DNA of 64,000 nucleotides from assembly GCA_021234155.1 (NCBI GenBank), contig JAJEKV010000008.1, positions 8,582,445 to 8,646,444 on the forward strand, given 5' to 3'. The notes below the pieces were generated by a model. The model was not told the origin of the DNA. It saw nothing but the letters and a program-made list of their open reading frames with translations, and made no database searches. The stretch is from Isoetes taiwanensis. Its lineage: Eukaryota > Streptophyta > Lycopodiopsida > Isoetales > Isoetaceae. Made by a program: the position numbers and the translations under genes. This document shows, one piece after another, positions 11,418 through 62,812 of this stretch (its first letter is position 1; each line of letters opens with the position of its first letter).

Positions 11418-11484
11418 AATTTCAATCCTCTTTTCGGAATTTCCCTAAAGATTTTCTCCGGCTGGGCTCGAGAAGAGAGAAACG

Positions 11485-13296
11485 ATGTCTGTCGCGGCCG
11501 GAGTTAGCGATGCGGCCATCACGGTAAGAGAAAAGCTAAGGGGTAAAATTGGACAGACTAGGGTACAGAGATATTGGCCAGGCCGAGCACCGGAATGGGC
11601 TGCAGAGGTAGAAGAAGAGGCGGAACCCAAAGGTCCAAATGAAGCTGTCAGGGCTGCATTCCCTCTTCGTGAAGATGGGTTTTTAGTTTCTGCTGGTGAT
11701 GATGCTAGATTGCGTAGATTAGCCGAAAGCCGTAGAGATCGTGAAGATGCAATTGCTAGGCATAGAGAGATTAGACAAGCAGAAATTCTTTCTATTCGTG
11801 AAGAGGAAAAAAAGGCCCAAGAAGCCGCTGCATTTGAAGAAGAAGAGGATGAAGTTGCTATTGAAGCTCGCCGGTGCAGAATTAGGGAAAAGATGCTTGA
11901 AAAACAGAGGGATGAAGAAATTGCTATGGAGGAGGAAGAGGATGAAGAAGATGTTGATGAAGACGAGGAAGAGGAATATGAAACAGATTCTGAAGATGAG
12001 GCTGGTGCAATGCCAATGGTGAAGCCAGTGTTTGTGAAGAAAAGTGAAAGGGACACAATAGCTGAGAGAGAAAAGCTGGAGGCTGAAGAAAATGCTATGC
12101 AAGAAGCTCTCAAGAAGAGGTTGGAGGAGAGAAAACTCGAAAGCAGACAGTTGCTGATTGAAGAAATTACAAAAGAAAAAGAATATGAGAAGATGAAAGA
12201 TAGTGAAGCAAATGCAGGGGATGTTGACACTGATGATGAGCTCAATGAGGCTGAAGAGTATGAGGCTTGGAAGGCAAGGGAAATTGCTCGAATTAAAAGG
12301 GATAGAGATGAGCGGGAAGCAATGACAAGAGAAAAGGAGGAAATTGAGAAGCTTCGCAATATGACAGAAGAGGAGCGAAAGGAATGGGAAAGGAAAAACC
12401 CTAAGCCTCAAGTTGCTGCAAAGAAAAAATGGAAGTTTATGCAGAAGTATTACCACCCTGGTGCTTTCTTCCAAACGACGCCTGATGATCATGCTGGAAC
12501 TGAAGGAGGATATGACATCTTCAGAAGGGATACATCTGCACCAACTGGGGAAGATAAGATGGATAAGACTATTCTTCCAAAAGTCATGCAAGTCAAACAT
12601 TTTGGCCGGAGTGGCAGGACAAAATGGACTCACCTTGTTGCTGAAGATACAACTCAATGGGACAATCCGTATGTACTTTCCTTTTAATTGCTTAGTTTTT
12701 TGTGGTTAGCTCTTCATATGATTTAGTTCTAAAGATTATTGGAGCAGTTCTTGCTATTGGCTTGTTTAATTGAAAAACTAAAACAGGATGGTAAACGTTA
12801 CTATGGCAACATTATACACCATTATTGTTATTTTGAATGTAGATCGAATTGTCTTGCAATCTGTTTATGCTTGTAGCGTGATACCCTTCTGAATTATTAG
12901 TTTCGAATGATCAGTAGAAAACTGTTTTGCTGCAACCAAGTTCATATACTATCCCTGTGTTTCCCATGACATTTTCTATATGGGGCCAAGTTTGTTTTTT
13001 GAAATTGTGCTATTTTTTTCTAAAATCTATCTTGGAAAGAGACATTTTTGTTAGTTGTGTTGATGCTTGTTGTCTACATCTTTTAACTATGATTGATATT
13101 AGGGTCATCTGACTGAGGATGTCTATTTGTAGTTAATTCGTCATGGTAGCTGCTTATGTGTTTGAAATATGCTCTTTTCAGATGGACATATAATGATCAA
13201 ATGCGAGCCAAATACAACCAAAAAATGGCTGGCATGAACAGGCCCATTGCAAAACCTCAAGGGAGTAAGAAACTTAAGGACTGGGAGAAGGTATAG
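11485..13296 (+). CDS. MFAP1: Microfibrillar-associated protein 1 homologue (MFAP1), spliceosomal B-complex protein
   Basis: Two exons, 11485-12668 and 13182-13296, joined by a GTATGT...TTTTCAG intron that splits a proline codon and restores the family's conserved C-terminal motif (QWDNPW-TYNDQ, then KYNQKMAGMNRPIAKPQGSKKLKDWE). The protein is 432 residues. It has an N-terminal VREKLRGKIGQTRVQRYWPGRAPEW-type motif, a long acidic, charged helical middle (Glu/Asp runs at residues about 115-175) and the highly conserved terminal domain KKWKFMQKYYHPGAFFQ...DKTILPKVMQVKHFGRSGRTKWTHL. MFAP1 proteins are nuclear and join the spliceosome at the B complex with PRP38, SMU1 and RED. The ATG directly follows a short leader with a TATA box 74 bases upstream. 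It looks intact and is probably an expressed housekeeping gene. Confidence 0.96.
12669..13181 (+). other. MFAP1 intron
   Basis: A 513-base intron with a GTATGT donor and a pyrimidine-rich TTTTCAG acceptor. No internal element was recognised. Confidence 0.9.
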
Positions 13297-14579: not shown

Positions 14580-15208
14580 TGGAGCTACAATGCAGCTCAA
14601 AAATTGGTCTCTGCATATTTATAACGAATTTAGCCACTTTCTTTGTTGTTTAGAATAAAGTTTGTGGGCCTCCATTTCAAAGATCTGGATACCAAAATGA
14701 GCAGCAAATGGCGTTTAATATGGTGGGGAATGTCTTTAACTTTGGACCTGAATATCAGCTAAGAACATTATTAGCTAGTGCAACGTGAAAAAGTCTTGAG
14801 ATGTTTTACTATAAGCATGTAATTCGATGGGCATGCACCACCTGTGATCCTATCAGGCATCTTATAAGGATGTTCAGATTGGTTAAAGAAGTCACAAAGT
14901 TAGATTTCAGACATCGTCAACTGTACCACAAGGTGCCAAGAGGCATGCCTTTTTTAAACAGGCTGTCACAAAATCAAGTAAAGATTGTGTAATAAGATGA
15001 AATTTTAACCAACTTGAAATTATAGGGTAAATCATCTTGATTTTATAACCTGAAATTTCAAGGTGATTTTGAGTTCAACAGACTTACATAATCAAAACTC
15101 CAAATAATAATGACAACCTAGAACATTCAATTTTATCACAAATCATCTTCATTCCAAATCAGTATTTTCATTACAAATAACAATTGCTGTGCAGAGTAAT
15201 GACAGAGT
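14580..15208. other. AT-rich stretch, no gene seen
   Basis: No reliable frame or terminus was found. The left limit of the compound accessory region should lie somewhere between here and 15440, but I could not identify it. Confidence 0.4.
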
Positions 15209-15307: not shown

Positions 15308-15444
15308 TAGTTCCAGACTAAATTTTGACACAAATGAGCCTTTTCATAGCCATCATCCATAAGCACAATTTCATTATTTTTGTACAAAACCTGAATTTAT
15401 GGACCATTTTTTGGATTTATACTTCAATAACAATTTTTCCCACA

Positions 15445-18400
15445 CTAACAAGAATCACCAGCGAGGGCTGCATATGCTTCAGCAACGGGCACTGGAATCT
15501 TGATAGTATTGGGGAGCTTCTTCCTGTTCGATGGAGACCAAGTAAAGTCGATTGTCTCCAACTCAATGTGATCACTAGCAGTGGTTGGCCTCCATCTTTT
15601 CTTCCAACAGTTTACATAATTGGCTGAGTACACTTGGTTCCTTACGGGGACAGGCTCCCACCAAGTGACCTGTACTGTCTCAAAATTCTCCTTCTTATCA
15701 TCCATCTGGGGCTCCTCCGTGGCGTCCCTACCAACCCATGTGGGACACAACACGTCATCAGGACGTGCCATAATGAACATACCTTTCTTCACATCCTTGA
15801 ATGGATTGAATTCTGGTATGGGTTTATCCTTCAATGGTCCCACGTATGGAGGAGCGATGCTTGCAATTGGCTCCGGTACTGCAACCATTTCTGGAAGCTG
15901 AGCTCCTTCTTGCATGGTGCATGGCCAAAAGTCCTCGTAAGTGCCTTCCGGGCACAAAATCTTCCCTAGCTCCTGTAAAAGACCCATCCAATACTCAATG
16001 GTAGCCGTGAATTGTGCGGAATAGTTGGCTGTTTCCGGGGTGCCCTTCTTGCTTGTGGAGATTGCAACCCAATGAAGGATGTGGTTGTGGATGATGTTTC
16101 GCAACTGGCCAAGGTCTTTTACTGTTCCCTTTGGTTTAAGCAGCTTGGGTGTTCCAATAGGCATCATGGGCTTCCCGTCTTCCCCTTCCTTCCACATTTT
16201 TATACTGCCTGTAGGCAGCCAATCCAAGAAGCACGGACGGGTTTTGTAATACATGACAGGCCACTCTCCATTCATTGCAAATTTGAATGTCAGAGGGGTG
16301 GTGTGGCCAGTCAATCTATCATCGCCGTCGGGTATGTACCCTTCTATAAACCCCTTCCAATCTGGCACTTTATCAACAATGTATGGTACAGGTGCATTCA
16401 GATTGCATGTGTGGAACTCATATAATAATTCGGGCATGGTCAGCACTTCGGCCTTCTTCAGAGTGGAGGAGAAGTTGCCAAACAAAGCATCAATGTCTTC
16501 GTGTGTATGTCCAGGCATCATGAAACCCAACTCTATCTCCTCGAACACACCAAGATATACGAGGTATGAAAGATACGAGAATACATACCTGTTTTTGTTT
16601 TGACCTGAAGCATTGTCCAGTTGCAGCAACAGTGTTCGGGGGAGGGGCTTGAAAGAAGGTCCTTCTTGTCTAGGCAAGCTTGCAGGGATGTTGCTATTGG
16701 TGAGTGCCAATTTCGATTTGAGTGCTGCATTGTTACGCAAGGAAGTCACCCAAGCCGGAGCTGATGTTTCTGGCATTGTAAGATGGCCTCCTGGATACTC
16801 ATGAACCATCTCGAGCCTTCTCAAGATGCTATTCAAAGAACCCACATGGAAGTTCGAGTCATCTGGCCATAGATCCAAAGCAAAGTTTCCATAGCTTCTC
16901 CTCCCATGACCATGAGTGAGAGCACCCATCAATGATGTTTTGAGTTTATCCAGTCTCCAAAGTGACTTCACCGATTGCTGCAATTTTGGAATCATTGTCT
17001 TTCACTGGTCCATCTTATCATGAATTATACAAACATAGTCTTTGGGATGCCTATGGGACAATAATCTCCACGACCAATACTGGGTACGACAGGAGGCTTG
17101 CTCCAATCTGTGTGCTCTTCTCTGGGCACGCAATATCCGCCTTTCTGCCTCATCCTTTGTCTTCAATAGCTTCGTACGAATGACCTCGCATGTATCACAT
17201 TTAGAGAACGAATTTTTTTTTGCGATACTGACATCCCTAAAGCTCCTTTTCCAAGTTCTATGAAACCCCGCTGGCGAGACTTTCTTGCCTGTCAGTGCCA
17301 TAACTTCTACATTCACCTCTTCTAGGATGCTTATTTTCGTAAACATTGCAGGCAACTTCCTAATGTTTTCCCGGATGCCATCTTCATTCCTCCGACTACG
17401 GTGAGGCAAGGATTCGCAATTCTCCCTTACGAACATGGAGAAAACAACCTCGGATGCTAAGGTGGATGCACGAGGCTTCAAACTACCACAGTTCCCGTGC
17501 TCTGCTTTGCGAGCACCCTCGGTGTATTGTGCTTTCCATTTCAGATACCCTGACTTTGAGATTCCCAGCCCAAGGTACCAGGCTCTCTCACAGACTAGCC
17601 TGCTATGCAACACCAGACGTTCCACTCGACGGCCTTTCATGTTGTTCCCAAGCATCTCATACACAAATGTCACCCTGTCGCTAGACTTCATTGCATAGAA
17701 CTCCTTGCGCATGTCGATGACCTGATTATGTGAGAACTTTGCACAACACCTGTGTTTGCAACACAACGCGATATTTCAAAAATAGCCTCCCTAGAGCTAA
17801 GGTGTTCAATCTTAGGCTGTCTCAAGAACCGCCTACGCTGACGGGAGTGGAAAGTGTACTTGCGCCTCTCGAAATTTGGATGCTTCTCAATAACAGAGCT
17901 GCCTTGACTTGACGGAGTATCTGCTTGCTCAGTTGGCTTTGCAGTCAAGATCTCAGACACCTTTACACCATCCACTGTAACATATTCGTTACTCCATCTT
18001 ACAAGCATACCTGCTTTTGGAACCTGTAAACAAGCCTGACAGCGGAAATTCACTTCAGCAAGAACCGGGTAACCCTCAACAATAGTCACTCCAATGCATT
18101 TCAACCCTAAGAACTGGTCACATACTGCATCATCTGGGCCTGTAAAGGATATGAACACCTTTCCAGCAGGAATGGAGTCGCAAGAGTGCCATATTTCATA
18201 GTCCTTCTCCAGTAAAGTGTATCTGGTGTGGGGGATAGGTTCCATAGTAGATTCCACTCTCTGTTTTTTGGAGGTGGACCCGACATCCTCTATATTGATT
18301 CACAGACGTCTTCCTCTCTCCAAAGAATGAAGGATTCTTTGGCTTCTCCTATAGTTTCTGCATCCGGAGTGGGCCATGGGAGGGCGTGAGACTCCTCAAA

Positions 18401-18517
18401 AACCTCTTGAACATCAACACTGACAGCTCCAGCGGGGATGGTTCTGAAATGGCACTGGTTAGAGTCTCCAGCGAATCCTTTGGCAACGGGACGACCATCC
18501 TTGAAGATGTACACTTC
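15445..18517 (-). pseudogene. DUF7869-like (transposase-related) protein gene, broken
   Basis: Minus-strand coding sequence in three blocks. An exon starting at 18517 after a CTCTGTTCTGCAG acceptor encodes VYIFKDGRPVAKGF...TIGEAKESFILW, weakly reminiscent of N-terminal domains of plant En/Spm-type proteins. A frameshift near 18290 leads to 18257-17760, and a second near 17760 leads to the Cys-rich KHRCCAKFSH...RKEFY block. An in-frame TGA at 17002-17004 separates IIHDKMDQ from KTMIPKL. The C-terminal half (16995-15445) has the family hallmarks LDNASGQNKN (residues 126-135 of that block) and GHTHEDIDALFGN (162-174), after an upstream FSKCDTC knuckle. Such proteins are often annotated DUF7869; an RNase-H-like fold or transposase origin is plausible but not shown. 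Upstream minus-strand sequence to 19128 (starting MSTLGESSSDN) may be a first exon, which would put the palindromes at 18601-19048 inside an intron. Confidence 0.75.
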
Positions 18518-18600
18518 CTGCAGAACAGAGGAGTCAGAACATGGGGCCAGGTTATTGAGAGCAGAACATACTGTAACAGAATCAGCCCCTGATTCGGGAC

Positions 18601-19048
18601 TTCAAATCGGGCGGATGCCCGATTTGAACCCATGGTGCACTCGCCACGAGAAGCCATATTGGACGGACATCCAATTACAGGCCCGGGCCAGTTTGACATA
18701 TCCAATCGGCTCTGAAATCGGGCGGTCGCCCAAATTGGTTTTGAAACATCACCTATGAGGCCACTGGGAAAATGATATTGGGCAGCCGCCCATCCTAATT
18801 CCCCGCAAGCTCAACACAGCAGGCAATCCAATGCCCAATTTGTTTTGCACGTGGCACACTGGCCAAAGTAAATTGGGCGCCCGCCCAATTTGTCTTCCAT
18901 TTCCTGCAAGTGGGCAGTCGTCGGTCGCCCGAAATGGATGCTGTGCACGTGGCACTGGCCAAAGTAAACTGGGCGCCCGCCCAGTTTGCATTCCATTTCA
19001 TGCAGGTAGGAACACATGATCACCTTCATTGGGCGGCCGCCCACATTT
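18601..19048. repeat. Palindrome cluster 1 (about 7 copies)
   Basis: Copies of the region-specific palindrome at 18601-18628 (perfect 12-base arms TTCAAATCGGGC / GCCCGATTTGAA around GGAT), 18658-18675, 18715-18736, about 18775-18795, 18870-18891 (perfect consensus), 18966-18987 (perfect, with both arms changed: AAACTGGGCG / CGCCCAGTTT) and 19027-19048. The copies at 18870 and 18966 sit in two tandem units of about 96 bases sharing GGCCAAAGTAAA before and TTCCATTTC after the palindrome. The cluster lies in a probable intron or the 5' region of the DUF7869-like gene. Confidence 0.92.
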
Positions 19049-19128
19049 AGGTCAGGTGTTTCTGGAGGGCTCCTCAAAATTGGCTGGTTTTGAAGATTGT
19101 CAGAACTTGACTCCCCCAGAGTGGACAT

Positions 19129-20067
19129 CCATTTGTATCAGCACTTGCACTGAGTCCCGAAGCTGCAATCTTAAAAGCATTGAATTGGCAGGCCATGCAG
19201 AGGCAGATTCTTTAAGGCTACACCATTAAGGAGGAGGGAGCTCAATCACGTCACCAAGATAAAGTATACATAGCAGACTCTTCTGTCTATTAGCTAGTAA
19301 GGATAGAAGGACAAAAATTGGAATCCAGGTGCTGACATCAGTAAAAAACATCTTCCAAAAAATGTTTTATTAGTTGAGCTAACATGAATTCGAACTCAAG
19401 AAACAATGCCAAAATCACAGATCTACCTTATTTAAGAAAAATTACCTTGGGAGTGACTGGCGCCATGTAAGTTCTTCGATGAAGTATATTAAAGTAGGCC
19501 CTCAAGGATGAAGGATTCAAAAGCAGAAAGCAATAAACATAAATGGGGAGGAATTCGAGATCCGAATTTGAATTACTCAGCAAATTCAAATTCAAAATTC
19601 AAATTCTCCCCCCATTTGTATGCATTTAATAGAGGGCAAATTTTATTAATGTTATTTGGGACACGTGCACGATACGTGTGTATATTCAAATTTTTTTGAA
19701 TTTCAAATTTGAATTGTGGACCCTCGGTCCATCAGCCCCCCTTCATTACTTTCAAGTACGGCTTGCCATGTGGCACCCACATATTCGTGGACGCGGGATT
19801 GCCAGGTGGCATCCAGGATTCTGTTCATTATTTACGGCGCCTGCCCATTATTTATGGACTACAACGGTCCATTATAACCGCAATTCGACACTTGTCCTCA
19901 GCCGGTGCAACCTCGGTGCATGCCTTCCTTATAAGTATAGTTTTTTCTGGATAGCCGCATTTTTAACAGTCCAAAGCTCCGCTTCCGAAACAGGTGCTTC
20001 GTTGTCACCAGATCTTAGGATAAGATGCCCATCCACATCAGGCGACACGCCTGCTCTGTATTGCTGA
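19129..20067. promoter_or_regulatory. Divergent intergenic region with TATA box for the plus-strand gene
   Basis: This separates the minus-strand DUF7869-like gene from the plus-strand methyltransferase-like gene. TATAAGTATA at 19930-19939 follows GC-richer sequence and precedes a candidate leader ending in ATG at 20068, consistent with a plus-strand promoter. Repeated AATTCAAATT motifs occur at about 19565-19610 and 19685-19715. No palindrome of the family lies in 19050-20430, which contrasts with both flanks. Confidence 0.5.
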
Positions 20068-20097
20068 TGGAAAGTCGCCCCACGAAAGGAGGCAAAG
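20068..20097 (+). other. Possible first exon or upstream ORF of the methyltransferase-like gene
   Basis: ATG GAA AGT CGC ... AAA G followed by GTAATG gives a short start exon (MESRPTKGGK). The next acceptor (GATGCAATGCAG near 20953) does not keep this frame open (stop after about seven codons), so it may be a leader exon with an upstream ORF. The 0.85-kb intron between them would contain palindrome cluster 2. Confidence 0.3.
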
Positions 20098-20339
20098 GTA
20101 ATGCTTGCATCACTGCCGGGTTGCTGTCACTGTTTATAAATTTTTTAATCCCAAAACAACATGGCATCTATTCTATCTTCCATCTATTCCCCCATTAGCT
20201 TTAAAAGAAGCTTGCACCTCTTCATTCTTAGTTTGTCCTGAAGTTACTGCAATAATCAACTGTTTTTCCTTCTAATACCTCTCTATTCTATCCTCTAACT
20301 ATCCCCCAGTTCCTCTAAAAGAAGATTGTACCTAATTCT

Positions 20340-20546
20340 TGTGCTGGCTTGCACCTATTTCTCTGTTAATCACAGCTCTGAGCAGGTCATGTGCTTGATA
20401 GTCGAACCACCTAACCTTGCTTCCCTCAGTAAAATGGGCGCCCGCCCTATTTTTCTGTTAATCACAGCTCTGAGCAGGTCATGTGCTTGAAAGTCGAACC
20501 ACCTCACCTTCCTTCCCGCTCAGTAAATTGGGCGCCCGCCCAATTT
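20340..20546. repeat. Tandem duplication that carries the palindrome
   Basis: Two units of about 95 bases contain TTCTGTTAATCACAGCTCTG, GAGCAGGTCATGTGCTTGA and AGTCGAACCACCT, and each ends in a copy of the palindrome (20431 and 20525). The copy number of the palindrome therefore rises partly through local tandem duplication. A looser duplication (AAAAGAAG-TTG-ACCT blocks) lies just upstream at 20163-20335. Confidence 0.85.
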
Positions 20547-20875
20547 CAATGAGCAAGTGTCTCTGCGTCAATTGCAAGCACTTAGTAAATTGGGCGCCCG
20601 CCCATTATACCTAAGAAGTGTGTATGCCTCAAGATCATCCACCGTTAGACTGGTCAGGTTGGTGGCCAGTCCTGGACCTGGCAAATTGGGCGGACGCCCA
20701 ATTTCAGAAGGACATGCCTCTCCCTTGGCGCCTGCCCTGAACCATTCCACCTTAGTTCATGATAAGTAAATTGGGCGGGCGCCCAATTTACCTCTGAATT
20801 GCATGCCCACTTTGGGGAATCCACGATTTCTTGGACATCTTGCGCCCCTTTGCAAATTGGGCGCCCGCCCAATTT
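20431..20875. repeat. Palindrome cluster 2 (6 copies)
   Basis: Copies at 20431-20453 (AAAATGGGCG arm), 20525-20546 (perfect), 20587-20607 (right arm decayed), 20683-20704 (perfect, centre GA), 20768-20789 (perfect, centre GG) and 20854-20875 (perfect, centre CC). The arms are the same while the two central bases vary. The cluster lies between the promoter region and the coding start at 20986. Confidence 0.95.
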
Positions 20876-22409
20876 ACTTTAATACTTTCGGTCAACTTGT
20901 ACTTCATGGTACTTTCGGTAAGCAGTACTTAATTCTTGTTTGATGCAATGCAGGACATACGGCAAGGACAAAGTAGACCGCCCGCATGCCTGGCTATGGA
21001 CCTGGGATACCGCAGGCTGTTGCTGCTGCGAAAGAGACAGAACAGGATGTGACATTTCAAGGGATTGAAGTAGTTCCAGAAGAAATCACATCTGTTGCTG
21101 ACACGTACACGTGATGCATTGAAATTGGAAACGTAAATCCTAAGTCGAGCACAAACCATCTCAAGGATTTATGTTTATATTTTGCCGTGCCAGGGACAAA
21201 AAATACAAGCAATGCTGGGATAGCAATTGATATGGGGGTAAACACAGAGGTACCCGGCGAGATAGAGGTTTTTGTAGAAGACGTATTGGACAAGTGCTTC
21301 CGTGCATACAGGCTACCCCTTGCCACTTATGACCCCCAACTCATGTCAGCAAGCATTACCAAAAATCAAAACTCCTGCGCCGCAAAGGGTTGGCAGCTGA
21401 ACTCATACGAGAGCTTGGAAAGATCTGGAATTAGAAAGCATGGAGACGTTATAGACGGCTTCAACATAGTCAGACAGTGGATTCTTGATCACAAGCAGAC
21501 TAGGTCGAAGGGCTTGTATACAGAATATCATGGGAAGGCCCAGCCAAAAGTGTACGATTCGGCCTGGTTGAGGTCTCGATATGGAGTTCCCAAAAAGGGA
21601 GAAGCAGAAAAAAGTGCAGAGAAGTCTAAGAACGTAGTAGTTGACAAAGGCACTGCTACAAAGAAGAAGAGATCATCTTTGAAAACGAACCCCAGCATTG
21701 AGACGCCAGTTGTTATACTTGGAGGTATGGAAAAGAGAGCAAGATTCTCTGATCCGAGCAATAGTGCCGGAGAATCTTCTGAACATTCTGCTGACCTTCG
21801 GTTAATAAAGAAACTAAGAACAAAAGAGCAAGCAGGCACCTCCTCTAAGAAACGAAGACGTCCCACTCCGCCTCAGACTTCATCTGAGACAAGCGAGGAC
21901 AGTGAAACACCTAGCGATAGTGGAGAAGGGGGACCATTGTCAATTGTACAGTGTACAGCCTCTACTGGGGAGTTAACACAGGAGAGTAGGCGTGAATTAT
22001 CTCAGAGCGCCATGTTGAACATCAAGCATAGGGAGAGGATTTATCCACTTGGTGTTGGGTGGTGTCGAAATTGATGTCGACATACTTAAGATGCATCAAG
22101 CCCCTGCCAACATGACCTGCAGGGTCATCAGTGCAGAACATGTGGATACCCTTTATGAATCTTTCATAACTATGCAAATGCATCCCACTGGCTGGAAACC
22201 TAACTCCAACGGAATATGTTAAGGTCAGCCAGGAAACAAATGATATCATACTCAAGACAATTCACGCAGATGTCTTCTTCGAGCAGGTCCAGCAACTTCG
22301 CAATCAGTGGGAACTGTATGGCAAGCCCAAGAAAGGGAAGCGTGGTCAATCAACGGAAGGCGCTTACTCTGCAAGTTATCTTCCCATTAACCCCTGTCCC
22401 ATGCAATCC

Positions 22410-22495
22410 AAATTGGGCATCCGCCCAATTTAATCTCTGCACCTCCAATCGAGTGCCCATGCATGTTCACTCCAAATAGGGCGGCCGTCCAATTT
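22410..22495. repeat. Palindrome pair 3, inside an intron
   Basis: Copies at 22410-22431 (AAATTGGGCA / CGCCCAATTT, one arm with G to A at the CpG) and 22474-22495 (decayed). They lie in the intron that ends at the TTGTATGCAG acceptor near 22580 of the methyltransferase-like gene. The donor is not certain because the reading frame around 22380 is disturbed. Confidence 0.85.
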
Positions 22496-23646
22496 CAAAC
22501 CCTTAATGCCTATCCATATTGTAGTTTCATCCAATTCTTGTGTCGTCTCAAGTTGTCTTACAGTATCTTTTGTATGCAGGAATGGGTAGCTATAGCAAAA
22601 CAGACCCTGAAGAATAAGAGCATGCGGGACTATGATTACTTCATCTATCTTGAGGAACAAACTTGGAATATGTGCACGCGTGTTGCTCAACTTTTTTACG
22701 AGGACGAGCTGAAGGATGAGAATGGCGATACAATTGAAGTCAAAGATCGTCTAAGGATGTTCACAAACAATTCTTGTCGGCCACTGAAGTCTATACACCA
22801 CATGGACTTGCAGAGATTAATGAGGGAGATCATGGCAGGCACCACGTTCATCAAGGCCACAAAGGCTTATAAAGGAAGGCGTGTCATGAAGACAAGAGCG
22901 CAGGAATTAAGGAAAATTGGCATTGTTGAGCGTGCATTACGAAATATCTAAGAGAGGTGAAGAAGTTAAAAGTTGAAAATATGGATGAAGTCAGACAATC
23001 TCATCCCATCTTCACAGAGAACCTCATGCTAATGTTTGCAAACAGTGTCAGTGATTGGACAGAGAGTCGAAAAGAAGCTGAGAAGGAAAATCTTCCAGAG
23101 ACTCTAATTACAAAAGTTAACGAATACCTCCGTGGACCAGTTGAAGAGGGTTCGAAGGCTTTCAAATGTCTGACTGTCAGTCCACTGGGGATGTGTGTTA
23201 ATGTCGTAAATACGTCAGCACGTTTGGTTGGATGTGACTTTAGGAACCTTAAGAAATGGTCGGTAGAGGAGTATCAGAAATTCATGGATCAGATTAGTAT
23301 CCTAACGGACCAGCAATTATATTGGATAACGATATTCATCAGCCCAGAGCATTTGAATGAGTGCTTGGTTGCAATGAAAACAATAGATGGTGGTAGTCGG
23401 GTGTGGATTGGAGCCTACCAGGATCCAAAAGCAAAGTCAGGGTCAACCTCTAGAGTTCGTGAGCTTCAGAGTTTTGTCTTGGTCATGTACGTGGCCCGAG
23501 ACCAAGCGGCAACACCTGCACTGGAGATGACTTGAATGTATGCTTTATAGACAGTGACCATCCATAACAGCATTCGAAATTTCCCCAGCATCTTAAAGAG
23601 GCAGAGGACATCGAGAAGAACTTACCAGACGTGGAGTGTTCGGCAG

Positions 23647-23716
23647 GTAATATTCTTTGAAATAGGGCGGTCGCCCAATTTATATGTTGCTTTTGCTGAA
23701 ATAGTTTCTCTTTCAG
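23647..23716 (+). other. 70-base intron containing one palindrome
   Basis: GTAATATTC donor and TTTCTCTTTCAG acceptor. Splicing joins ...VECSA to AYWLYRPW, which is continuous in the related copy. The palindrome at 23660-23681 (AAATAGGGCG / CGCCCAATTT) fills about a third of the intron. The copy at 56617-59001 has an intron at the same place that also holds the palindrome (57211-57236), but its acceptor is changed from CAG to CAA. Confidence 0.8.
23660..23681. repeat. Palindrome 4, intronic
   Basis: One family copy with a single arm mismatch (AAATAGGGCG, centre GT, CGCCCAATTT). It starts 13 bases after the intron's first base. Confidence 0.9.
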
Positions 23717-24602
23717 CGTATTGGTTGTATCGTCCCTGGCGTGATAAGAGTGCAGCAGGTGGGTCTGGACCTCTCGTTCCGAATCAACTACAAGCCAAGA
23801 CCTGCACGTATTTGGTGCGCAAACTAATGATGGAGGGTTGCAGCGTTCTTGATTTCTTTTCTGGAGGTTCATTCAGTCGTGCAGCACTATGCGAAGGATA
23901 CAAAGCAACTTCCTTCGAGATAGACGAGAACCTGCAGCTCAAGCTAGTGCAGATCTTCGATCAACTCGAAATAATGTTGGACGAAAAGAAATCATTGGCC
24001 CGCCGGAGGCAGAAAATTTCAGAGGGCAAGAAGAAGAAATCTGGTTCCAAGCCTGTACAGTTACAAACGCTGCTCAGACAGTTCAGGAACTGCAGTCCAC
24101 ACTCCGCCTGAGTAAGGAATCCCTTGCAGAGAAAATAAAGAAGGCTGCAGGAATAGGAAGTAAGGATCTATCCATCTTCTGAAAGAAAAAAGACAAAATT
24201 AATATGTTGGCAGGAACGCAAGTGGTGAACACTCAGGATGTCATTGACGGTAGCTCAAAATTCAATGAGATAGTGGACAATGATCGTGAGGAATCCTTCG
24301 TCAAGGACACACCTCAAAGTCAACAGGAAGAAGAGCTAGATAAAGCGCGAGAGCATGAGGAAGAACAAAGGCAGGTAGACAATACAGACAGAATATCCAA
24401 TGTGGAGAAGGAGACAGGTGAGGTAGAGACAGGTGAGGGAGGGACAGGTGAAGAAGGTGGCTCACTGAGCAATGAAGAATTCATTAACAAGATGGAAGCT
24501 ATAAAGCAAGATGTCCAGCAACAACAAGATCAACAAAATGACGTCGACAACACTGAAGAGAACCCCCCAGACCCGTGAACAAAGGTTGGAGCTTCGGAGA
24601 GT

Positions 24603-24634
24603 TGCTGAAATTGGGCGCCCGCCCAATTTCAGCA
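24603..24634. repeat. Palindrome 5, longest perfect copy (15-base arms)
   Basis: The arms are extended to TGCTGAAATTGGGCG and CGCCCAATTTCAGCA around a CC centre. It starts 25 bases after the TGA that ends the methyltransferase-like gene, so it would lie in the 3' UTR as a strong hairpin. Confidence 0.95.
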
Positions 24635-24780
24635 GTCACATCTACGGAATCAAGATTATATCATGTAATTTTGTATCTAGTACTTGTATCTATGACAATT
24701 TGAAATCATGAAATACAAATTTTTTTTGTGATGCTGTTTATTCTATTGGATTTAATTGGTTGTATTCTAATAGAACGTCT

Positions 24781-24881
24781 GACATAATTGGGCGAATGCC
24801 CAATTTGTCCAACCCGGGAGGCCATTCGTGGGCTGGGTTGAGAATCTACATGGAAAAGCAAATTGGGCGAGTGCCCAATTT
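24781..24881. repeat. Palindrome pair 6
   Basis: Copies at 24781-24809 (GACA-t-AATTGGGC / GCCCAATTTGTC, extended flanks) and 24860-24881 (AAATTGGGCG, centre AG, TGCCCAATTT, with outer GGAAAA / TTTTCC). Both have lost a CpG in the right arm (CGCCC to TGCCC). Confidence 0.9.
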
Positions 24882-25101
24882 TCCTGCGCTAGAAGAGCCA
24901 CTGGTAGTTATCAGTGCCAGCAGTTGAACGTGAGGTGAAGTGGAAGTGCAGAAAAAGTGGAGGTCAAGAAGCACAACTTTACAAATTACTCAGGTTCGAT
25001 CGCGATACATGAAATAATATTCACCATGCTTATACATCCTTACATATTTCAGAAGTGCTTATATCATTATATCCTTAACAGGTACACAAGTCATCACTAT
25101 T

Positions 25102-25350
25102 TCACTCATCATTAACACCTGCTGAGGTGATGGCATTCAGCTCATAGATCTCCTGATCGGGAAGCCAAATAAGGTGGATCACAACACGAGTGAGCTCGAG
25201 GCAACGAATCTCAGGACCACGAGCTTTGGATTCCATCCAGGGATCAAGCTTGACATCCTTTCTCTTTCTCAAGCATTCATCAAGATCATGGTAGCTCATG
25301 GAGCACTTGATGGTTTGGATGTGCTCCGGACGAGGAGGCAAGGAAGCCAT
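25102..25350 (-). CDS. Small protein of region-specific family, member A
   Basis: An 82-residue minus-strand ORF from ATG to TGA. The family pattern is visible: PPRPEHIQTIKCSMSYHDLDEC at the N-terminal third, LDPW in the middle, and VVIHLIWLPDQEIYELNAIT near the C-terminus. It shares this pattern with members B (25768-26016) and C (26218-26484). No known domain, signal peptide or membrane segment is recognised. All three lie between palindromes, in the same block as the methyltransferase-like gene. The frame is intact. The function is unknown; a DNA- or protein-binding accessory role is only a guess. Confidence 0.6.
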   Translation of the reverse strand: MASLPPRPEHIQTIKCSMSYHDLDECLRKRKDVKLDPWMESKARGPEIRCLELTRVVIHLIWLPDQEIYELNAITSAGVNDE

Positions 25351-25491
25351 GGGAGATGAATGACCTCTACCACCGAATGGAGCTGCTTTTATAGTGAAGT
25401 AAAATTATTGATGTGAATTATTGGTGTAGATTGTACCGCCATTATTGAGCGTGTATAAGTATCATATACAAGTATCATGTACACGTACGAG

Positions 25492-25615
25492 AAATTGGGC
25501 GGCCACCCATTTTGAAGCGGAGCCATTCACTTCGAATTTTTGAAGACAAGTTGGAATAAAGCGTATATTCGACAGAACTATGCATTTCAACGCAAATTGG
25601 GCGGGCGCCCAATTT
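25492..25615. repeat. Palindrome pair 7
   Basis: Copies at 25492-25513 (right arm decayed to CACCCATTTT) and 25594-25615 (perfect, centre GG). They lie between small genes A and B. Confidence 0.92.
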
Positions 25616-25767
25616 CAGCGCCAGGAATGGATATCAATATTATTTCACAGGAGTCATATACAAGACAAGTTGGACTAAGTTTATCTCAGAACTGTGTATT
25701 ACAAAAGCATGTGTGATTGCGTTGGATAGTAACACAATCTGATTACAACAAGATGACAAGTATTGAT

Positions 25768-26016
25768 TTAGGGGGACTCTTCTAAGTCATTGTCACCAGC
25801 CACCCCAGTGATCTTTTCTATCATGTACATTTGATGCTCTCTATTCCATATCAGATGGATGATAACATCGAAGGGATCAGGATAATGGCGAGGATTGAGA
25901 GCGACAGTGATCATCTAGTTTTCCATGGGTATTTCTCACTCGCGGCACTGCTTGAAGTTTTCGTGATTCATCTTGCAGGTAATGGAATCATGTTCAGGAC
26001 CAGAATGAGACCACAT
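25768..26016 (-). pseudogene. Small protein of region-specific family, member B (broken)
   Basis: On the minus strand ATG at 26016 reads SGPEHDSITCKMNHENFKQCRE and meets TGA at 25936-25938. In another frame the C-terminal family block continues as DPFDVIIHLIWNREHQMYMIEKITG and ends with TAA at 25768-25770. One further stop (TAG) lies between the two blocks. Alignment with members A and C shows that this is the same family broken by a frameshift and stops. Confidence 0.6.
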
Positions 26017-26217
26017 GGCTAGATGGAGGCCAAATTTGATGGACAAAATTGGTTTGATATATATTTATACCCACCAAAATTATTGATGGTATTGTACACA
26101 AAAATTATTGGATATACATACTACTCGTATATACACCCAATAATGTTGCTACAGTGGTCATCAATAATTCCATGGCTAAGTATAGACGCATTCGAGTGCA
26201 TAGCACATTCCTTTGCT

Positions 26218-26484
26218 ATGTCTCGCCGTTTTGCTAGAGTTCTTCAGAGGTCGCAATTGCCTCCTCCTCTAGAGCATCTCGACACCCTCACTTGCCTTAT
26301 GACTTTCGACGATCTTCATGCATGCATCTTCAAAGGGATCACCCTTGATCCCTTGCTGCATGGTATAGCTATTGGTCGACCGAAAGACTCCCCCGGCGAG
26401 TACCATATTACTATCCATATTGTTTGGGTTCCGGAGCACGATGCTTATGAGATTGATAAAATCACCAAGAATTACAATCTATGA
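26218..26484 (+). CDS. Small protein of region-specific family, member C
   Basis: An 88-residue plus-strand ORF: a basic N-terminus (SRRFARVLQRSQ), then PPPLEHLDTLTCLMTFDDLHAC, ITLDPLL, and ITIHIVWVPEHDAYEIDKIT near the end. The match to member A is collinear over nearly the whole length, while this copy lies on the opposite strand. The ATG at 26218 is preferred over the longer open frame starting at 26023 because homology begins just after it. The function is unknown. Confidence 0.6.
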   Translation: MSRRFARVLQRSQLPPPLEHLDTLTCLMTFDDLHACIFKGITLDPLLHGIAIGRPKDSPGEYHITIHIVWVPEHDAYEIDKITKNYNL

Positions 26485-26638
26485 GTCATGTATTTCATAA
26501 GTTCATAAGAATTTATATCTGATATGATTGTATTATGTAGCATTCACACGTGATCTTATAGTGTTCAATTACTTTTATTTGTGTTGGATTAATTATATTT
26601 GTCACAGTCTGTATTTCCATTTTCTTGCAACTCCAACG

Positions 26639-26729
26639 AAATTGGGCGGGCGCCCAATTTCCTTTGGAGGCATCTAGGAAACTTTGTTCAGACGACTACC
26701 AGGGCAAATTGGACGGGCGCCCAATTTGC
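26639..26729. repeat. Palindrome pair 8, right-most copies
   Basis: Copies at 26639-26660 (perfect, centre GG) and 26704-26729 (GCAAATTGGACG / CGCCCAATTTGC, 12-base arms with one mismatch). No family copy is seen between here and 57211. Confidence 0.93.
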
Positions 26730-26921
26730 ACATAACAAATTGGTGTCTTGAAATTGTGGGTTATGCTCCTTCATAAAAATAGATAGAACCAGTTACATTC
26801 ATATAGAAATGCAGTACATAGATGGAGTACACATATTATAAAACCAATGAAACATCATGCCTCGACATAGATAGTTCGACACAAACAGAATAGAGAGTAG
26901 AAAATATCAGGGAGCCAGGTT

Positions 26922-27419
26922 TTAGTCAATGCCTAGTTCTACCTGAATAAGATCACCCAGATCGAACTTATCAATGTAATTTCTGCTATACATATCCAGC
27001 CAGTCATCCAATTCAAGGATCGAGTGAGGAGTGTTGACAATGAGCTTGGTTACCAAAGCTTCACGCTGCCTTTTTTCCTTCTTATAAAGCTTCTTAAATA
27101 ATGGTCTGAACGTGTTGTGCAGCCAAACATCCTCTAGTTTGAGCAGCCTCTTCAGGGCCTCTCCCCTGTAAACATGTCATTTCAATGATATGAGGCAAGC
27201 TTCCAGCTCCACCCTACTGAGTTGATCATTGCTTTCCTTTAACAACCCTTCCCCACGGAGGAGCTTCATGACCTGCCCACTGATTTCTTTTCTTCCATTC
27301 TGGTTTATCTCATTTTGCACCTCAACCTGCAACTGATTCGCGTGGGCTAAGATTGGTTCACTAATATGGGACTGCATTTCAGTCATTGTGAGTCCATACC
27401 GGCGCCTCGTTTCAACCAT
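26922..27419 (-). CDS. Two-exon minus-strand gene, product not recognised
   Basis: Exon 2 (27165-26922) follows a TGTTTACAG acceptor. It encodes GEALKRLLKLEDVWLHNTFRPLFKKLYKKEKRQREALVTKL, ILELDDWLDMYSRNYIDKFDLGDLIQVELGID, and ends at TAA. Exon 1 begins at ATG 27419 (VETRRRYGLTMTEMQSHISEPILAHANQLQ...) and probably ends near a GAAGG-GTTGTT donor around 27255, which would keep the frame. The product is about 130 residues, charged and largely helical. It lies 190 bases beyond the last palindrome and may belong to the same compound element. No known domain is seen. Confidence 0.45.
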
Positions 27420-27602
27420 TCTGACTGCTTCGTTATGAATCTATGCTACACAGATTTGCAAAACAAAGCTTGACTAGCAACACCTCTTATACAGAAGGCG
27501 CTTTTCCGCGATACCGAGTTTGCTGTGTCTTCCTTGGCTTAGTAGAAACAACACCTGCCATCTCATCTACCTGCACGTTTCCCGAAAACTTGCATCATTC
27601 TA

Positions 27603-28775
27603 TTAAAAAAAACCATAATATTCCAAAACTTTGCGACAATTTCGGAGGCGTATGGACTCAGGGAAAGTCCATATATAATGAAACAGTGCTTCCATGCGGA
27701 GACCTTGCACCACATTGTCGGCAACTGCGACCTGAAAAAGCTGCGGGAGAGCTTCTGCCACTATAATGAACAGAAAGGGGGCCAACGGACATCCCTGCCT
27801 AATGCCTCGGCCCACAGAGAAGATTGAAGAGGTCTCACCCTGACACCACACTGTCGCCCTAGCAGACACGTGCAGCTTCATAACCGTTTTCCTGAAACTA
27901 GGTCCACACCCAAAGGCCTGCATCATATCCGCCAAGAACTGCCAGCTGACACTGTCATAAGCCTTGGCAAAATCCACAAGGGGCTGCCTCATCCTACGAG
28001 CCCAATGCACTCCCTCAAAAGCAGCAGCCACGTTATGAAGAATATTCTACTGAGGGAGAAAACCAGACTGCTCTGCGCTAATGGCGTGAACTAGTACTGG
28101 CTTAAGCCTCTCAGCCAAAGCCTTAGCAATGATATTATACACTACAGACAATAGAGTAATAGGCCTCCAGTCATTGATGGTTTTAGGATGCTTACATTTG
28201 GGTATAAGTGAAATACAACCTGTATTCAGTAGAGGATGCATCGAGTTATTCCCCAAAAGATCCATATACACCTGCACCACCGAGTCCCCCACCCACTCCC
28301 AGTACTGCTGAAAAAACTCCACTGGTATTCTGTCCAACCCAGGACACTTATTCCGAGCCAACAAGCGACATGCGTCCCCCAACTCCTGCCCTGTCAACGG
28401 CTCCTCTAAGCTCTGTCTTTGAAGGGCTGAGATTCTTGGCGATACCTTGGCCAGCACCAGCTCCTGAAAAACACTCTGTGAGGGAAGCAGGCTCTCCTTG
28501 AAAAACCTTTCATAGTGCGCTGCTACAAAGGCCTTGATAGCATCTGGTTGCTGCAACAACACTCCCTAGGGTGTAACTATGTCAGCCATGGCTGTTGCAT
28601 ACTTCTTCTGGCGGGCTGCTCGGAAAAAGACTTTAGAGCAAGTGTCAGACTGCTTCAGCCACGTCAAACCACCCGCTTTGACCCTGGCCTGCGAAGTCCC
28701 CATAGCCACAAAAAGTAGGAAGCATCGAGATCTGCTACCACCAAGATCTGCAACCACCAAAACGTCAAACAACAA
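27603..28775 (-). mobile_element. L1-type LINE reverse-transcriptase remnant
   Basis: On the minus strand: linker (ARVKAGGLTWLKQSDTCSKVFFRAARQKKYATAM), in-frame TAG, palm start (LARNKCPGLDRIPVEFFQQYW, LNTGCISLIPKCKHPKTINDWRPITLLSVVYNIIAKALAERL, AEQSGFLPQ), a second in-frame TAG, then VDFAKAYDSVSWQFL (motif A) and GIRQGCPLAPFLFIIVAEAL (motif B). The expected F/YADD block is missing; the text jumps to LRNCRKVLEYYGFF, so a short internal deletion removed the catalytic core. There is no endonuclease and no poly-A end. It is typical of plant L1 elements and is dead. Confidence 0.9.
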
Positions 28776-29655
28776 AACAACAACAAAATATAAAAAAAAA
28801 AAACAAGGAATAAAGAATGCTTTACCTCAAATACCTTGCATGCAACTGCAGCACCAAGAACTCGGAAGAAATTGATCAAACTAGTAGAAAACTCACAAAA
28901 AACCTTTAAAAACTCAAAAGGAAGCTCCACAGACTCTACAAAAAGCTCCAAATCTTCTCAAACACCAAGAAACTCCAAAAAATAGTAAGAAAGCTCCAAA
29001 AACCTTAGCGCTCAACAAGCGCCAGCAAAAGCACACTCTAAGCTTTTAGAAAATAGAAGCAAATCGTTGCCAAAAGTTTTGGTAGCATGCTGGATCATGG
29101 ACGCCATAGCCAAAAGGAAGAGAAATTGTCTCGAAAACTTTTTTATAAGGCGGCCACGTCAAGCAAAATTTCAAGTTGGTTAAAATTTCGTCGGCGAATT
29201 TCGGTGAGTACCTTTTTGCTCATGCATTTTTTGAGCAAGCAGTCCCATACTCCGTCTTGAACTTATGTCTTCCTTGCAAGCAAAACACTTCGTAAATAAA
29301 AACCATGTAAGATCGAGGGACCAGAGGATGATTTTTCGAGGGGATTTCTAATTTCCTTAGCCAGAGGATCAAAAGTAAGAAATCTAACGTCTAGGTTTTA
29401 GCCACATCCATTTTGGGATGAGCTGTTGGACACGTGGATAAGCTAGAATTTTAGAGACATGTGCCATGCTGGAAATGAAAGCCATGTCATCACTTAAAAA
29501 CAATCTCGGCCTTATTTCTTTTTTCTTTTTTTTTCCACCATTAATTGGAAATATTTGAGGCCACAAACACAATTGCCTTTCCTTTAGTGATCGATCTCGC
29601 CCTTAGGTGAATGCTTTTGGCCAGTAACTAAGTAACTAAGTTGGAGGTTTTGGAA
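28776..29655. other. Intergenic and promoter region of the hydrolase gene
   Basis: A-rich and 'CTCCAAAAA'-rich sequence, then moderately AT-rich sequence up to the hydrolase start. No clear TATA element or coding frame was identified. Confidence 0.4.
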
Positions 29656-39214: not shown

Positions 39215-40093
39215 TTATTCATATGTGAACACATCAATTTGTTCACCTAGATCATGCTCAATGTCATCTATCTCATCATCATCTAGATGTAAACGAAGAG
39301 CCAAACCTCTAATTGCTTCAGAACGATCATGTGCATGTCCAATAATTTCTTCGTCTTCAGTGTAATCCTCATCATGAACATGAACATGGATTGGCGAATT
39401 AAATGGAGATCGGAGCACATAATTCGCTTCTTTATCAACCTCCTCTCTTCGTGAAAGTGCTAATGGCGATTCGAAAGAAACATGTTCATCCATATGATCC
39501 TCATATGCACCCTCCTCTTCAATGTCCTCTCCTTCTCCTTCTCCTTCTCCTTCGTCATGCAATAATATGTCATCATCATTATTAGTGATGTCTAGAACAG
39601 CCTCGTGGTGGCCACCACCACCACCACCACCATCAATATCATCATCATCAGCATCATCAGCAGATAAAGCAATTATACGTCGAGCTCTTGGTTGACAATG
39701 TACGACAATCCACCAGTTTGTGTCATTAGGATTCTCATGGATAAATATCTGCTCAACCTGACTTAGAAACACGAAAGGTTCTTTCATTTCAGCCAATACC
39801 TTTGAAGAATCCACTTCTATAAATCCAGATGGATGAGTCCTAACTGTCTTGCCACGACCTCTATATACAACTTTGAACCATCGTGCCTTCAAGACATTGA
39901 CATGAAATCTGCGATAATCCAACTCAATAATGTCTGTCAGGATTCCCACATAATCCAGGTTACTCTCCAGAAGGTTGTGATCCCTGTTACTAGATTGACT
40001 TTTTTGTTCAAATTCTGCGCTGATCCCTGAATCAAATGTAACCCTACACTTATCAACGTTGTTGATGCGAAGATGCTGTCCATATGCCCACAT
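39215..40093 (-). CDS. DUF4216-domain protein of CACTA element (C-terminal part of a TNP2-type ORF)
   Basis: A 292-residue ORF. Residues about 45-140 show the DUF4216 pattern: DYVGILTDIIELDYRRFHVNVLKARWFKV, GFIEVDSSKVLAEMKEPFVFLSQVEQIFIHE, then WWIVVHCQPRARR. A long acidic low-complexity tail follows, with Asp, Gly (eight in a row), Glu-Gly repeats and EDYTEDEEII. In autonomous CACTA elements this domain follows the transposase core on the same protein. Here the frame begins at MWAYGQHLRINN and the core is missing. The frame itself is intact, so a truncated protein could still be made. Confidence 0.85.
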   Translation of the reverse strand: MWAYGQHLRINNVDKCRVTFDSGISAEFEQKSQSSNRDHNLLESNLDYVGILTDIIELDYRRFHVNVLKARWFKVVYRGRGKTVRTHPSGFIEVDSSKVLAEMKEPFVFLSQVEQIFIHENPNDTNWWIVVHCQPRARRIIALSADDADDDDIDGGGGGGGHHEAVLDITNNDDDILLHDEGEGEGEGEDIEEEGAYEDHMDEHVSFESPLALSRREEVDKEANYVLRSPFNSPIHVHVHDEDYTEDEEIIGHAHDRSEAIRGLALRLHLDDDEIDDIEHDLGEQIDVFTYE

Positions 40094-40099
40094 CTTCTT

Positions 40100-40290
40100 A
40101 TCTTATATTATAATGTTTTAATGTAAGTGTGGTGCATCGAGCCCTAAATTGGACGGCCCAGATTTGATCTAAAAGTTGCACGGTCCAAATAACCCAAGAT
40201 AGCCCACGATTTTGTGTTTTGTTTGTGTCCTTCAAGCCCTAACCCCATCTTTCTCTTACCTTCCGATGTTTTGATCCGCCGGAGCTGATA
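40100..40290. promoter_or_regulatory. Divergent promoter region of the CACTA genes
   Basis: The short gap between the minus-strand DUF4216 ORF and the plus-strand Transposase_24-type gene must hold both promoters. No unambiguous TATA element was seen. Confidence 0.35.
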
Positions 40291-44744: not shown

Positions 44745-45770
44745 AAGAATAGAATAGAATAGAATAGGTTTTTAGCGTCCACGGAAACTAATTGGCCTAT
44801 GGGACCCAAATAAAAAGAGAGCAGCAAGCATATTACTGACAGGATTAAAAAACCCCTGCCCCGAAGGGTTTTCGAGGGAAAAACCTTAGCAGTAATAAGC
44901 ATGCTGGCACACTGTACAATTGCATAGGACAGTTCAAGACCGTCACGTAGGACACAAACGCGTCCGTGCATCCATAACCTCCTGGAGGTATGACTCCAAC
45001 AAACCCACTGACGCCGTAGTCAATAACTGATGCAACGGCTGGCCAGGCACTAGTAGTCGAACATACCTCTCTCGGATATGGGCAAATGCCGGGCAGATCT
45101 GGAGGGTATGACATTCATCCTCAATCGCTACCGGTGGGCAACACCGCAAAGCCTTTGCTCGCGTGCTTCCCAGCCCAACGCCTGCTTTCAATGCGGAGGC
45201 GATGTGCACCCGTCTTGAATGGAAGCTATAAGTCCGCGCTTCTTCATGGGCAGCGGGGTGTACAAGTAATCGTGCGGGCCTCTTGTGAGCCTAGGATTGA
45301 CTTGTCCGGCGATAGTGTGCCCGCCTTAACGCGTCGCGTCGAGCCTCGCATCCCGAGCTTATGAAGGAAAGTAGCATCTAGATGCGGTTTAAGTGCCTCG
45401 CGATCTTTCTTTGTCCCGACTGGACGCGATCTGTTTGCTCGCACACCCCAAAATATGGAGAACCACCGAGCTTGCTTGTCTTTCCAGCAGGATTTCAGGC
45501 GTTGGGGACCCATCGCCGTGGTCAAAGCAAGATGGGGCAAGCGTGTATCAGCCATAGCGACCACCTTTTGGAAGTAAACGATATGGCGTTCCAATGCAGC
45601 CCGTTGAAGGGGTAGAAAGCCTGTCTCCTGGAGTAGGATCTGGTACGGAACTGTGGACTTCACCCCCAGGGCCCGTGCCAAGAAGGCCTTCTGCACCTGC
45701 TCGAGGTCATTCCATGTGTTGAGGGAGATGACCGGACCCCACACTTCTGCCCCATACAACAGGACCGGCT
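44745..45770 (-). mobile_element. 5'-truncated LINE with (TATTC)n tail
   Basis: On the minus strand the text begins at PVL-YGAEVWGPVISLNTWNDLEQVQKAFLARALGVKSTVPYQILLQETGFLPLQRAALERHIVYFQKVVAM and continues to the Cys-His region (CCPPVAIEDECHTLQICPAFAHIRERYVRLLVPGQPLHQLL). It ends with the conserved hairpin 3' region (44845-44885) and tail GAATA repeats (44748-44769). The first half is open, then frameshifts occur. It is CpG-rich compared with the copy at 1345-3085. It is inserted in an L1 (flanks 44619-44744 and 45771-46027). Confidence 0.88.
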
Positions 45771-59001: not shown

Positions 59002-59127
59002 GGTTCCTAGGCAGAATTCATAACCCTAGTCAGGATGGTTCTAAGGCTGGACGGGTGAAGAGAAAGAACTATTTGCCAGATGAAGTCATGAATGTCAGCG
59101 TTTACCATGCAATTCTGCCTAGGAACC
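58984..59127. repeat. Rearranged inverted pair at LINE/gene junction
   Basis: GGTTCCTAGGCAGAATT at 59002-59018 has a perfect inverted copy at 59111-59127. CATTCATAACTTCATCTGG at about 58984-59002 has an inverted copy with one mismatch at about 59078-59096. The order of the two inverted copies is not that of a simple hairpin. Confidence 0.85.
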
Positions 59128-62114: not shown

Positions 62115-62812
62115 AATGACGAGGCAAGATGGGCACCTAAAATGAGAAACCCCAAGTTGTCAACAATGATGCAAAATTGCAAAAGTACTAAAGGGAAAGA
62201 GACATGCTCGAGGCCCAAAAAACCGTGAGATAACAACATGTGACAACACTACCGATAGGTACCCCATAAAACGACAAACAACATCACATAGGTAAGAGCC
62301 TATAGGAAAATCAAACATTATGTGTGGACAAGAAAGATAAAGGGAAAAGCAACATAGATAACGACCATACAAAAAATCATGCGATGTTACCTAGGATGTA
62401 TGAAACAAATCAAGCTATGCGATTTCATAGTACAAAAAAACACGCTATGTTAGGTCATAGAATGTATGCTATGCGATTTCATAGTATGCATAAACATGAA
62501 AAGCAAAAATCACACCATGGGATTGCATATTAAGCATGAGATAGGGCCAACATAGATAGTACCCCAAGTTGTCAATGAGGATGCAAGAATACGAAAAGTA
62601 ATAAAGGGAAAAAAAATATGCCTGAGTGCCAAAAAAACCGTGGGAGAATAACATGTCACAACACACCCATAGGCACCTCATATAACGATAACAACAGCAT
62701 ATAGGTAGGAACAAAAATCAAGCCATCTTATGGGAAGAGAACGAGAAAGTGAAACCAACACATAGGCAACAACCGCAAAAAACAAAGCTATTGTATTGCA
62801 TATGAGTAATAA
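62115..62812. repeat. Two-unit tandem duplication (~430 bases)
   Basis: Unit 1 (from about 62148) and unit 2 (from about 62561) share CCCCAAGTTGTCAA, AAAGGGAAA, GCCCAAAAAACCGTG / GCCAAAAAAACCGTG, ATAACAACATGTGACAACAC / ATAACATGTCACAACACACC, and the ends ACAACATCACATAGGTA / ACAACAGCATATAGGTA. Unit 1 also has two copies of CTATGCGATTTCATAGTA. No coding sequence is present. Confidence 0.7.

Follow-up and report, generated by a model that had tools for sequence, protein, structure and literature searches.

CACTA (En/Spm) transposons have ends that begin CACTA or CACTG, make a 3-bp target duplication, and hold many subterminal copies of a short protein-binding motif. The VANC motifs, such as the VANC21 motif of VANDAL21 (YAGTATTAY), form tandem repeats, located both in introns and in the regions upstream (PMC5735166). 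Target duplications of Sola2 are 4 bp long (PMC3627910), Sola1 is present in Physcomitrella (PMC9033089), and fungal DNA transposons carry TET/JBP genes (PMC12730594). The present analysis concerns a 64,000-nucleotide stretch of the Isoetes taiwanensis genome (contig JAJEKV010000008.1, positions 8,582,445 to 8,646,444; hereafter the window), where a family of palindromes lies within a multi-gene DNA transposon. On balance, we consider it rather probable that these palindromes act as conserved cis-elements within a Sola-like DDE transposon, and that they are dimer sites serving gene activation and anti-silencing in the manner of VANC.

Like VANDAL21/Hiun of Arabidopsis, the Isoetes element is a multi-gene DNA transposon with element-specific short motifs that are dense in upstream regions and introns and have expanded in tandem (PMC5735166), but its motif is a 22-bp dyad and its transposase appears to be a different one. 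Pfam scans of the element proteins, the pieces of which are broken and diverged, returned DUF7869 and no MuDR or VANC-type family. The Sola superfamily shares with it a 4-bp target duplication, short inverted repeats, a DDE-type transposase, and DUF7869 relatives in Physcomitrium, although the pertinent parts of two papers on them (PMC9033089, PMC3627910) make no mention of such multi-gene cargo or of arrays of palindromes. The proposed kinship, which 'Sola-like' is meant to convey, is suggested by the 4-bp duplication and by Sola1 in Physcomitrella. In En/Spm, too, one element holds many copies of a short motif (predicted to be protein-binding in Isoetes), but the Isoetes sites are internal and dyadic, the ends read AAGCAC and the duplication is 4 bp, so the element is not of the CACTA type. 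Fungal TET/JBP transposons are likewise DNA transposons with an epigenetic accessory gene (PMC12730594), whereas the Isoetes accessory protein has no Pfam dioxygenase match and begins with a histone H3 tail.

Inverted repeats, a target duplication of fixed length, and an RNase H-like transposase core are all present, and the element is a DDE DNA transposon. Its ends, inverted repeats of about 25 bp (AAGCACARTTTCATTAWWTWTGGAC in inverted orientation), were revealed where alignment with other copies stops, and the 4-bp target duplication is exact in seven of the eight two-ended copies, the eighth being off by one base (Table 1). DUF7869, a domain with no mention in the literature searched, is the transposase of the element, as judged by fold, the core of a relative having a DDE/integrase fold. 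The accessory gene also occurs in the copies C138, C20, C8, C73, and C63. Short derivatives of 3.6-4.4 kb (C68, C130, and C63 25090-28692) retain 4-6 palindromes; C68 is complete at both ends but matches no gene, the other two contain transposase fragments only, and a further stretch, C32, has one end only. A first-pass annotation of the window had regarded the palindromes as intrinsic to some unnamed mobile system, and this is strongly supported by the inverted repeats, 4-bp duplications, transposase fold, conserved gene order, and deletion derivatives. The follow-up analysis added three things that were absent from that annotation: where the element ends, the DDE fold of its transposase, and the histone-like start of its accessory protein.

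A search of the window for AAATTGGGCG-N2-CGCCCAATTT at up to three mismatches gave 21 sites, 20 in the palindrome-rich region and one at 57213, against a mean of 0.00 in 100 dinucleotide shuffles. At up to five mismatches, the limit for acceptance, there were 23 sites at 18604-26727 plus that at 57213, in agreement with the approximately 24 copies first claimed. The remaining matches within the scan cut-off of seven mismatches (five, all at seven, one of them at 19830 within the region) were treated as noise. Eight sites are identical to the consensus, and in nine the arms pair at all 10 positions, bearing out the earlier count of at least eight perfect copies, and the 15-base arms reported for one copy belong to site 24608; the positions listed at that time correspond to real sites, several being off by 1-5 bases. 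Each site covers 22 bp, with the two-fold symmetric layout TTGGGCG-N2-CGCCCAA between A/T shoulders, and the half-sites are about one helical turn apart. Pairs 6 and 7 (G-C) are invariant over the 23 sites, while the A/T shoulders hold 24 of the 35 mismatches. All seven changes at CpG positions of window sites are CpG-to-TpG/CpA transitions, and of the 302 CpG positions in a larger set of 151 sites, 236 are intact, 46 show TG or CA, and 20 show something else, the pattern expected of methylated DNA. The CC/GG orientation of the palindrome centres (Fisher p 0.088) was not used as evidence. The copies at 18870 and 18966 are tandem duplicates, the palindromes of which differ by a paired T-to-C / A-to-G change that leaves the dyad perfect.

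The palindromes had been thought restricted to one 8-kb region, which is true within the window but not of the genome, where at least 7,248 sites were found at up to two mismatches and none with a reversed control (1,658,258,908 bases in 1,110 contigs were searched, repeat counts being lower bounds). The stretches used for comparison (C8, C20, C138, and others) were drawn from the 50 exact sites that head the list and are not a random sample. These 50 sites fall into 15 stretches, all of which carry element genes or ends. In the eight stretches with a two-ended copy, window included, there are 92 sites per 79,261 bp of element and 5 per 143,739 bp outside it; one of the five is in the relic gene at 57 kb, and four are in a second element copy on C63 with unrecognised ends. 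The genome search and co-localisation suggested in the first-pass annotation thus placed the listed exact sites examined with copies of one transposon family, and among them there was no sign of the uniform scatter, independent of these genes, that it had named as a refutation. When considered as a miniature inverted-repeat transposable element (MITE) or known satellite, the sites proved to be scattered, with only short local arrays. Viral contigs yielded no relatives, and prokaryote genomes two lone exact palindromes.

The sites avoid coding sequence, as had been claimed. None of the 23 in the window overlaps a provisional exon (exon limits were taken from translated matches, and amount to 50% of the span), while 20,000 random placements averaged 11.9 overlaps and never had fewer than 2. 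For the 23% of the span homologous to the 57-kb copy the random mean was 5.6, and zero occurred in 33 of 20,000 trials. Across six multi-gene copies, none of 93 palindromes overlaps a coding match. They crowd the divergent promoter region between transposase and accessory gene, the introns, and the spacers of the small genes. They also recur at the same places: the spacer between the accessory and DUF7869 genes has 11 in the window, 10 in C138, 6 in C20, and 8 each in C8 and C73, and one accessory-gene intron has a site in six of seven copies (window 23660, relic 57213, C138, C20, C8, and C63, not C73). The relic accounts for the outlying copy first noted at 57211, in a relative of the same gene, as it is a decayed accessory gene with its palindrome (57213) in the homologous intron. 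Between window copy and relic, protein dN is 0.18 (223 codons) and four-fold sites are near saturation, with 19 of 56 identical, while the intron palindrome is 16/22 identical (Fisher p 0.0025 vs four-fold sites).

Once the palindromes had been masked, the window's divergent spacer failed to align with those of C20 or C8, and its matches with C138 and C73 were limited to 41 and 26 bp, respectively; that of C73 failed to align with C138, C20, or C8, whereas the latter three aligned well with one another. Spacers that, once masked, hardly align across lineages nevertheless hold 6-11 palindromes each, so the motif persists while the DNA around it turns over. The local arrays differ by copy, with periods of 67 (C138), 73 (C73), and 43/80 (C8), and some palindrome copies arose by local tandem duplication.

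Three explanations had been offered at first: sites for a dimeric protein, RNA hairpins, and self-mobile mini-elements. The first fits best, and the other two are disfavoured. Symmetry, placement, and the decay of one arm at a time make binding by a dimer the most likely reading. An element-encoded protein would bind each dyad as a dimer, and the palindromes would mark the element's own regulatory DNA, namely the divergent transposase/accessory promoter region, the introns, and the small-gene spacers. Guided by them, one element protein would switch on the element genes and oppose silencing, as VANC does in VANDAL. We infer the anti-silencing part from the VANC analogy and from the histone tail, and an accessory protein that opens with the H3 tail would fit a chromatin role.

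Several points weigh against this proposal. All copies except the 57-kb relic were found by way of the palindrome, and palindrome-free copies would have been missed. Judging by their alignable spacers, C138, C20, and C8 are one lineage rather than three. The full set of 151 sites includes 24 in which pair 6, constant throughout the 23 of the window, is broken, and the intron outside the palindrome is itself 35/54 identical between window copy and relic (gap-optimised), which makes the palindrome's excess over its own intron modest. The 7/7 CpG transitions suggest that the window copy, which is broken, is methylated and decaying. The transposase, the accessory protein, and the small proteins are all candidate binders alike, and the palindromes kept in short derivatives could point to a role in transposition instead of gene control.

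That last role is the substance of the best-surviving alternative, in which the sites bind transposase for synapsis and excision, as En/Spm subterminal repeats do. The three short derivatives with their 4-6 sites speak for it, as does a helix-turn-helix-like sequence (by eye only) in the upstream part of the transposase, but the sites are internal, the nearest to an end being 210-3231 bp away (at least 872 bp in six of the eight copies), and many are in the divergent spacer and introns; we regard it as unlikely. Ordinary promoter control without anti-silencing, in which a repressor encoded by the element or a transcription factor of the host would use the palindromes as operators, seems quite unlikely. 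A perfect-dyad site of about 22 bp is typical of operators and the clusters lie upstream of both divergent genes, but introns and 3' regions also hold sites, and a host factor would be expected to have sites at host genes, whereas all 50 of the exact sites listed, out of 7,248 in total, are in element-bearing stretches.

Hairpins acting in the transcript would be in keeping with the long arms, the location of several sites in introns or untranslated regions (UTRs), and the paired change in the 18870/18966 duplicates. However, the 151 sites from stretches and window (85 distinct) contain only 6 paired changes against 195 broken pairs, a comparison in which the mismatch cut-off biases somewhat against finding paired changes; moreover, the innermost pair is unable to close a 2-base loop, and sites are located between divergent genes. 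Together these three observations favour a DNA dyad, and leave hairpins very improbable. Self-mobile mini-elements, or passive tandem repeats without function, are scarcely credible, as local tandem duplications do carry some sites but no consistent flanking duplication was seen (no formal null), and homologous places are occupied across lineages whose spacers hardly align.

The accessory protein begins, unexpectedly, with MARTKQTAR, which is the histone H3 tail, in C8, C20, and C138 (one lineage), and the window copy, of another lineage, has a relic of this start with two lesions and synonymous changes in other codons. The start reads MAVTKQTASR in C73 and MARTKHID in C105. Residues just past the tail differ between lineages, which makes the tail the conserved part. 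The protein's weak resemblance to N6/N4 DNA methyltransferases fell short of the profile cut-off (PF01555, 17.6 vs 26.7 bits), and one of six members matched PF01555 (E=0.0074). The catalytic motif of these enzymes is (D/N/S)PP(Y/F/W), and the likely corresponding position reads SPLG, SPRG, or SSLG (HPSG in the decayed C73), its placement being uncertain.

The tail is not confined to this gene. Starts with M and at least five of the eight tail residues numbered 9 in 244 kb of stretch sequence (reversed control 0), one of which, in C130, arises by chance where a palindrome is read through. Genome-wide, a MARTKQTAR-coding pattern had 904 + 984 = 1,888 exact matches (control 0); it admits Ser at two Arg positions and includes true H3 genes, and mimics are fewer than this number. 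Ten places, hand-picked for variety among about 100 matches listed (L037-L046), all continue into non-histone sequence, highly charged and gag-like by eye; no H3 body followed the tail by eye in these ten, nor in the accessory gene. The MARTKQTAR start at C8 75316 lies within an insertion that also holds an integrase tail of the chromodomain type (Chromo E=3.7e-10), and the two presumably belong to one Ty3-like element. Retrotransposons of Isoetes taiwanensis thus appear to wear the histone H3 tail. Variant tails were seen on other open reading frames (ORFs), namely MARTKQIRRE (C68:244813), and MARTKCTARR and MARNKCTARK (C39:141795, 142612), with a reversed control of 0.

It is possible, if doubtful, that this amounts to histone mimicry against silencing. 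The accessory protein, with the mature end A-R-T-K-Q-T-A-R, would reach the palindromes by itself or via a partner, and the decoy H3K4 tail would attract activating readers or block the DNA-methylation machinery; the gag-like retrotransposon proteins would share the device. We know of no earlier case of transposon proteins using H3-tail mimicry as a tactic. Histone-tail mimicry borne by transposable elements was not reported in the limited literature searched, nor in the 'histone' parts of a review (PMC12085086).

Features of the window and the other two-ended copies are collected in Table 1. Closely flanking the element is a perfect inverted repeat of 23 bp (14999-15021 / 29167-29189), which was considered as its ends and rejected, because homology to the copies stops at 15361 and 27691 and because the repeat was not found in the ten stretches compared, where the nearest matches have 4 and 6 mismatches. 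It exceeds the longest repeat in 40 of 40 Markov controls (maximum 19). Elsewhere in the window, a weak DUF4216 match just under cut-off at 39215-40102 suggests a CACTA element, reverse-transcriptase-like LINE fragments were recognised by eye at 1498-2896, 27603-28565, 45244-45768, and 62806-63228, and a host gene at 11449-12687 resembles MFAP1, also by eye.

Table 1. Features of the transposon in the 64-kb window, and two-ended copies in other stretches.
Feature	Position	Strand	Basis or remark
Whole transposon copy, 12,331 bp, defective; two-ended, duplication CCAT	15361-27691		homology to several copies ends at 15358-15361 and 27683-27691; termini AAGCAC
Left terminal inverted repeat	15361-15385	+	AAGCACAATTTCATTATTTTTG..., common to other copies
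Right terminal inverted repeat	27667-27691	-	AAGCACTGTTTCATTATATATGGAC on minus strand
Left target-site duplication CCAT	15357-15360		end analysis
Right target-site duplication CCAT	27692-27695		end analysis
DUF7869 transposase gene, fragmented, with a stop after HDKMDQ and a frame break	15445-18601	-	PF25273 E=3.4e-41
Accessory gene, weakly N6/N4-methylase-like, stops and frame breaks	20959-24578	+	PF01555 E=0.0039, below cut-off
Relic of MARTKQTAR start, reads TARTK*TAR	20959-20985	+	reading of window accessory gene
Small gene 1, no family assigned	25105-25404	-	related copies in C138, C20, C8
Small gene 2, by eye a relative of genes 1 and 3	25771-26020	-	sequence comparison
Small gene 3	26194-26481	+	86% identical to C138 copy
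'hel', two-piece gene, no family assigned	26925-27440	-	conserved in C138, C20, C63, C73
Accessory-gene relic	56918-59002	-	homology to window accessory gene
Palindrome cluster, 7 sites, upstream of transposase gene	18604-19047		motif scan
Palindrome cluster, 6 sites, upstream of accessory gene	20431-20875		motif scan
Two palindromes, accessory-gene intron	22410-22495		motif scan and placement analysis
One palindrome, later accessory-gene intron, same place in 6/7 copies	23660-23681		copy comparison
Palindrome with 15-base arms, presumed 3' UTR	24608-24629		motif scan
Two palindromes, accessory gene / small gene 1 spacer	24785-24881		motif scan
Two palindromes upstream of small gene 1	25492-25615		motif scan
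Two palindromes, small gene 3 / 'hel' spacer	26639-26727		motif scan
Palindrome in homologous intron of relic	57213-57234		motif scan and copy comparison
Two-ended copy, C138	27572-40135		duplication ATAT
Two-ended copy, C20	178717-190956		duplication CATA
Two-ended copy, C63	25090-28692		duplication AAAT
Two-ended copy, C68	247106-251234		duplication GATG
Two-ended copy, C112	624112-639080		duplication AGTA
Two-ended copy, C130	82560-86990		duplication GGAT
Two-ended copy, C73	201480-216473		duplication AACC/AATC, one mismatch

With these results DUF7869, an unnamed domain, gains the role of a DDE transposase, and a multi-gene plant transposon family is defined end to end. Element-specific motif arrays are shown outside Arabidopsis, staying in place while the surrounding DNA turns over, and transposon self-recognition and self-protection become testable in another plant. 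Up to about 1,900 places in the genome match the pattern for the H3-tail start, and if such starts on transposon proteins are true mimicry, they would represent a tactic new to our knowledge, and tail mimicry would then be a general anti-silencing device common to unrelated mobile elements.

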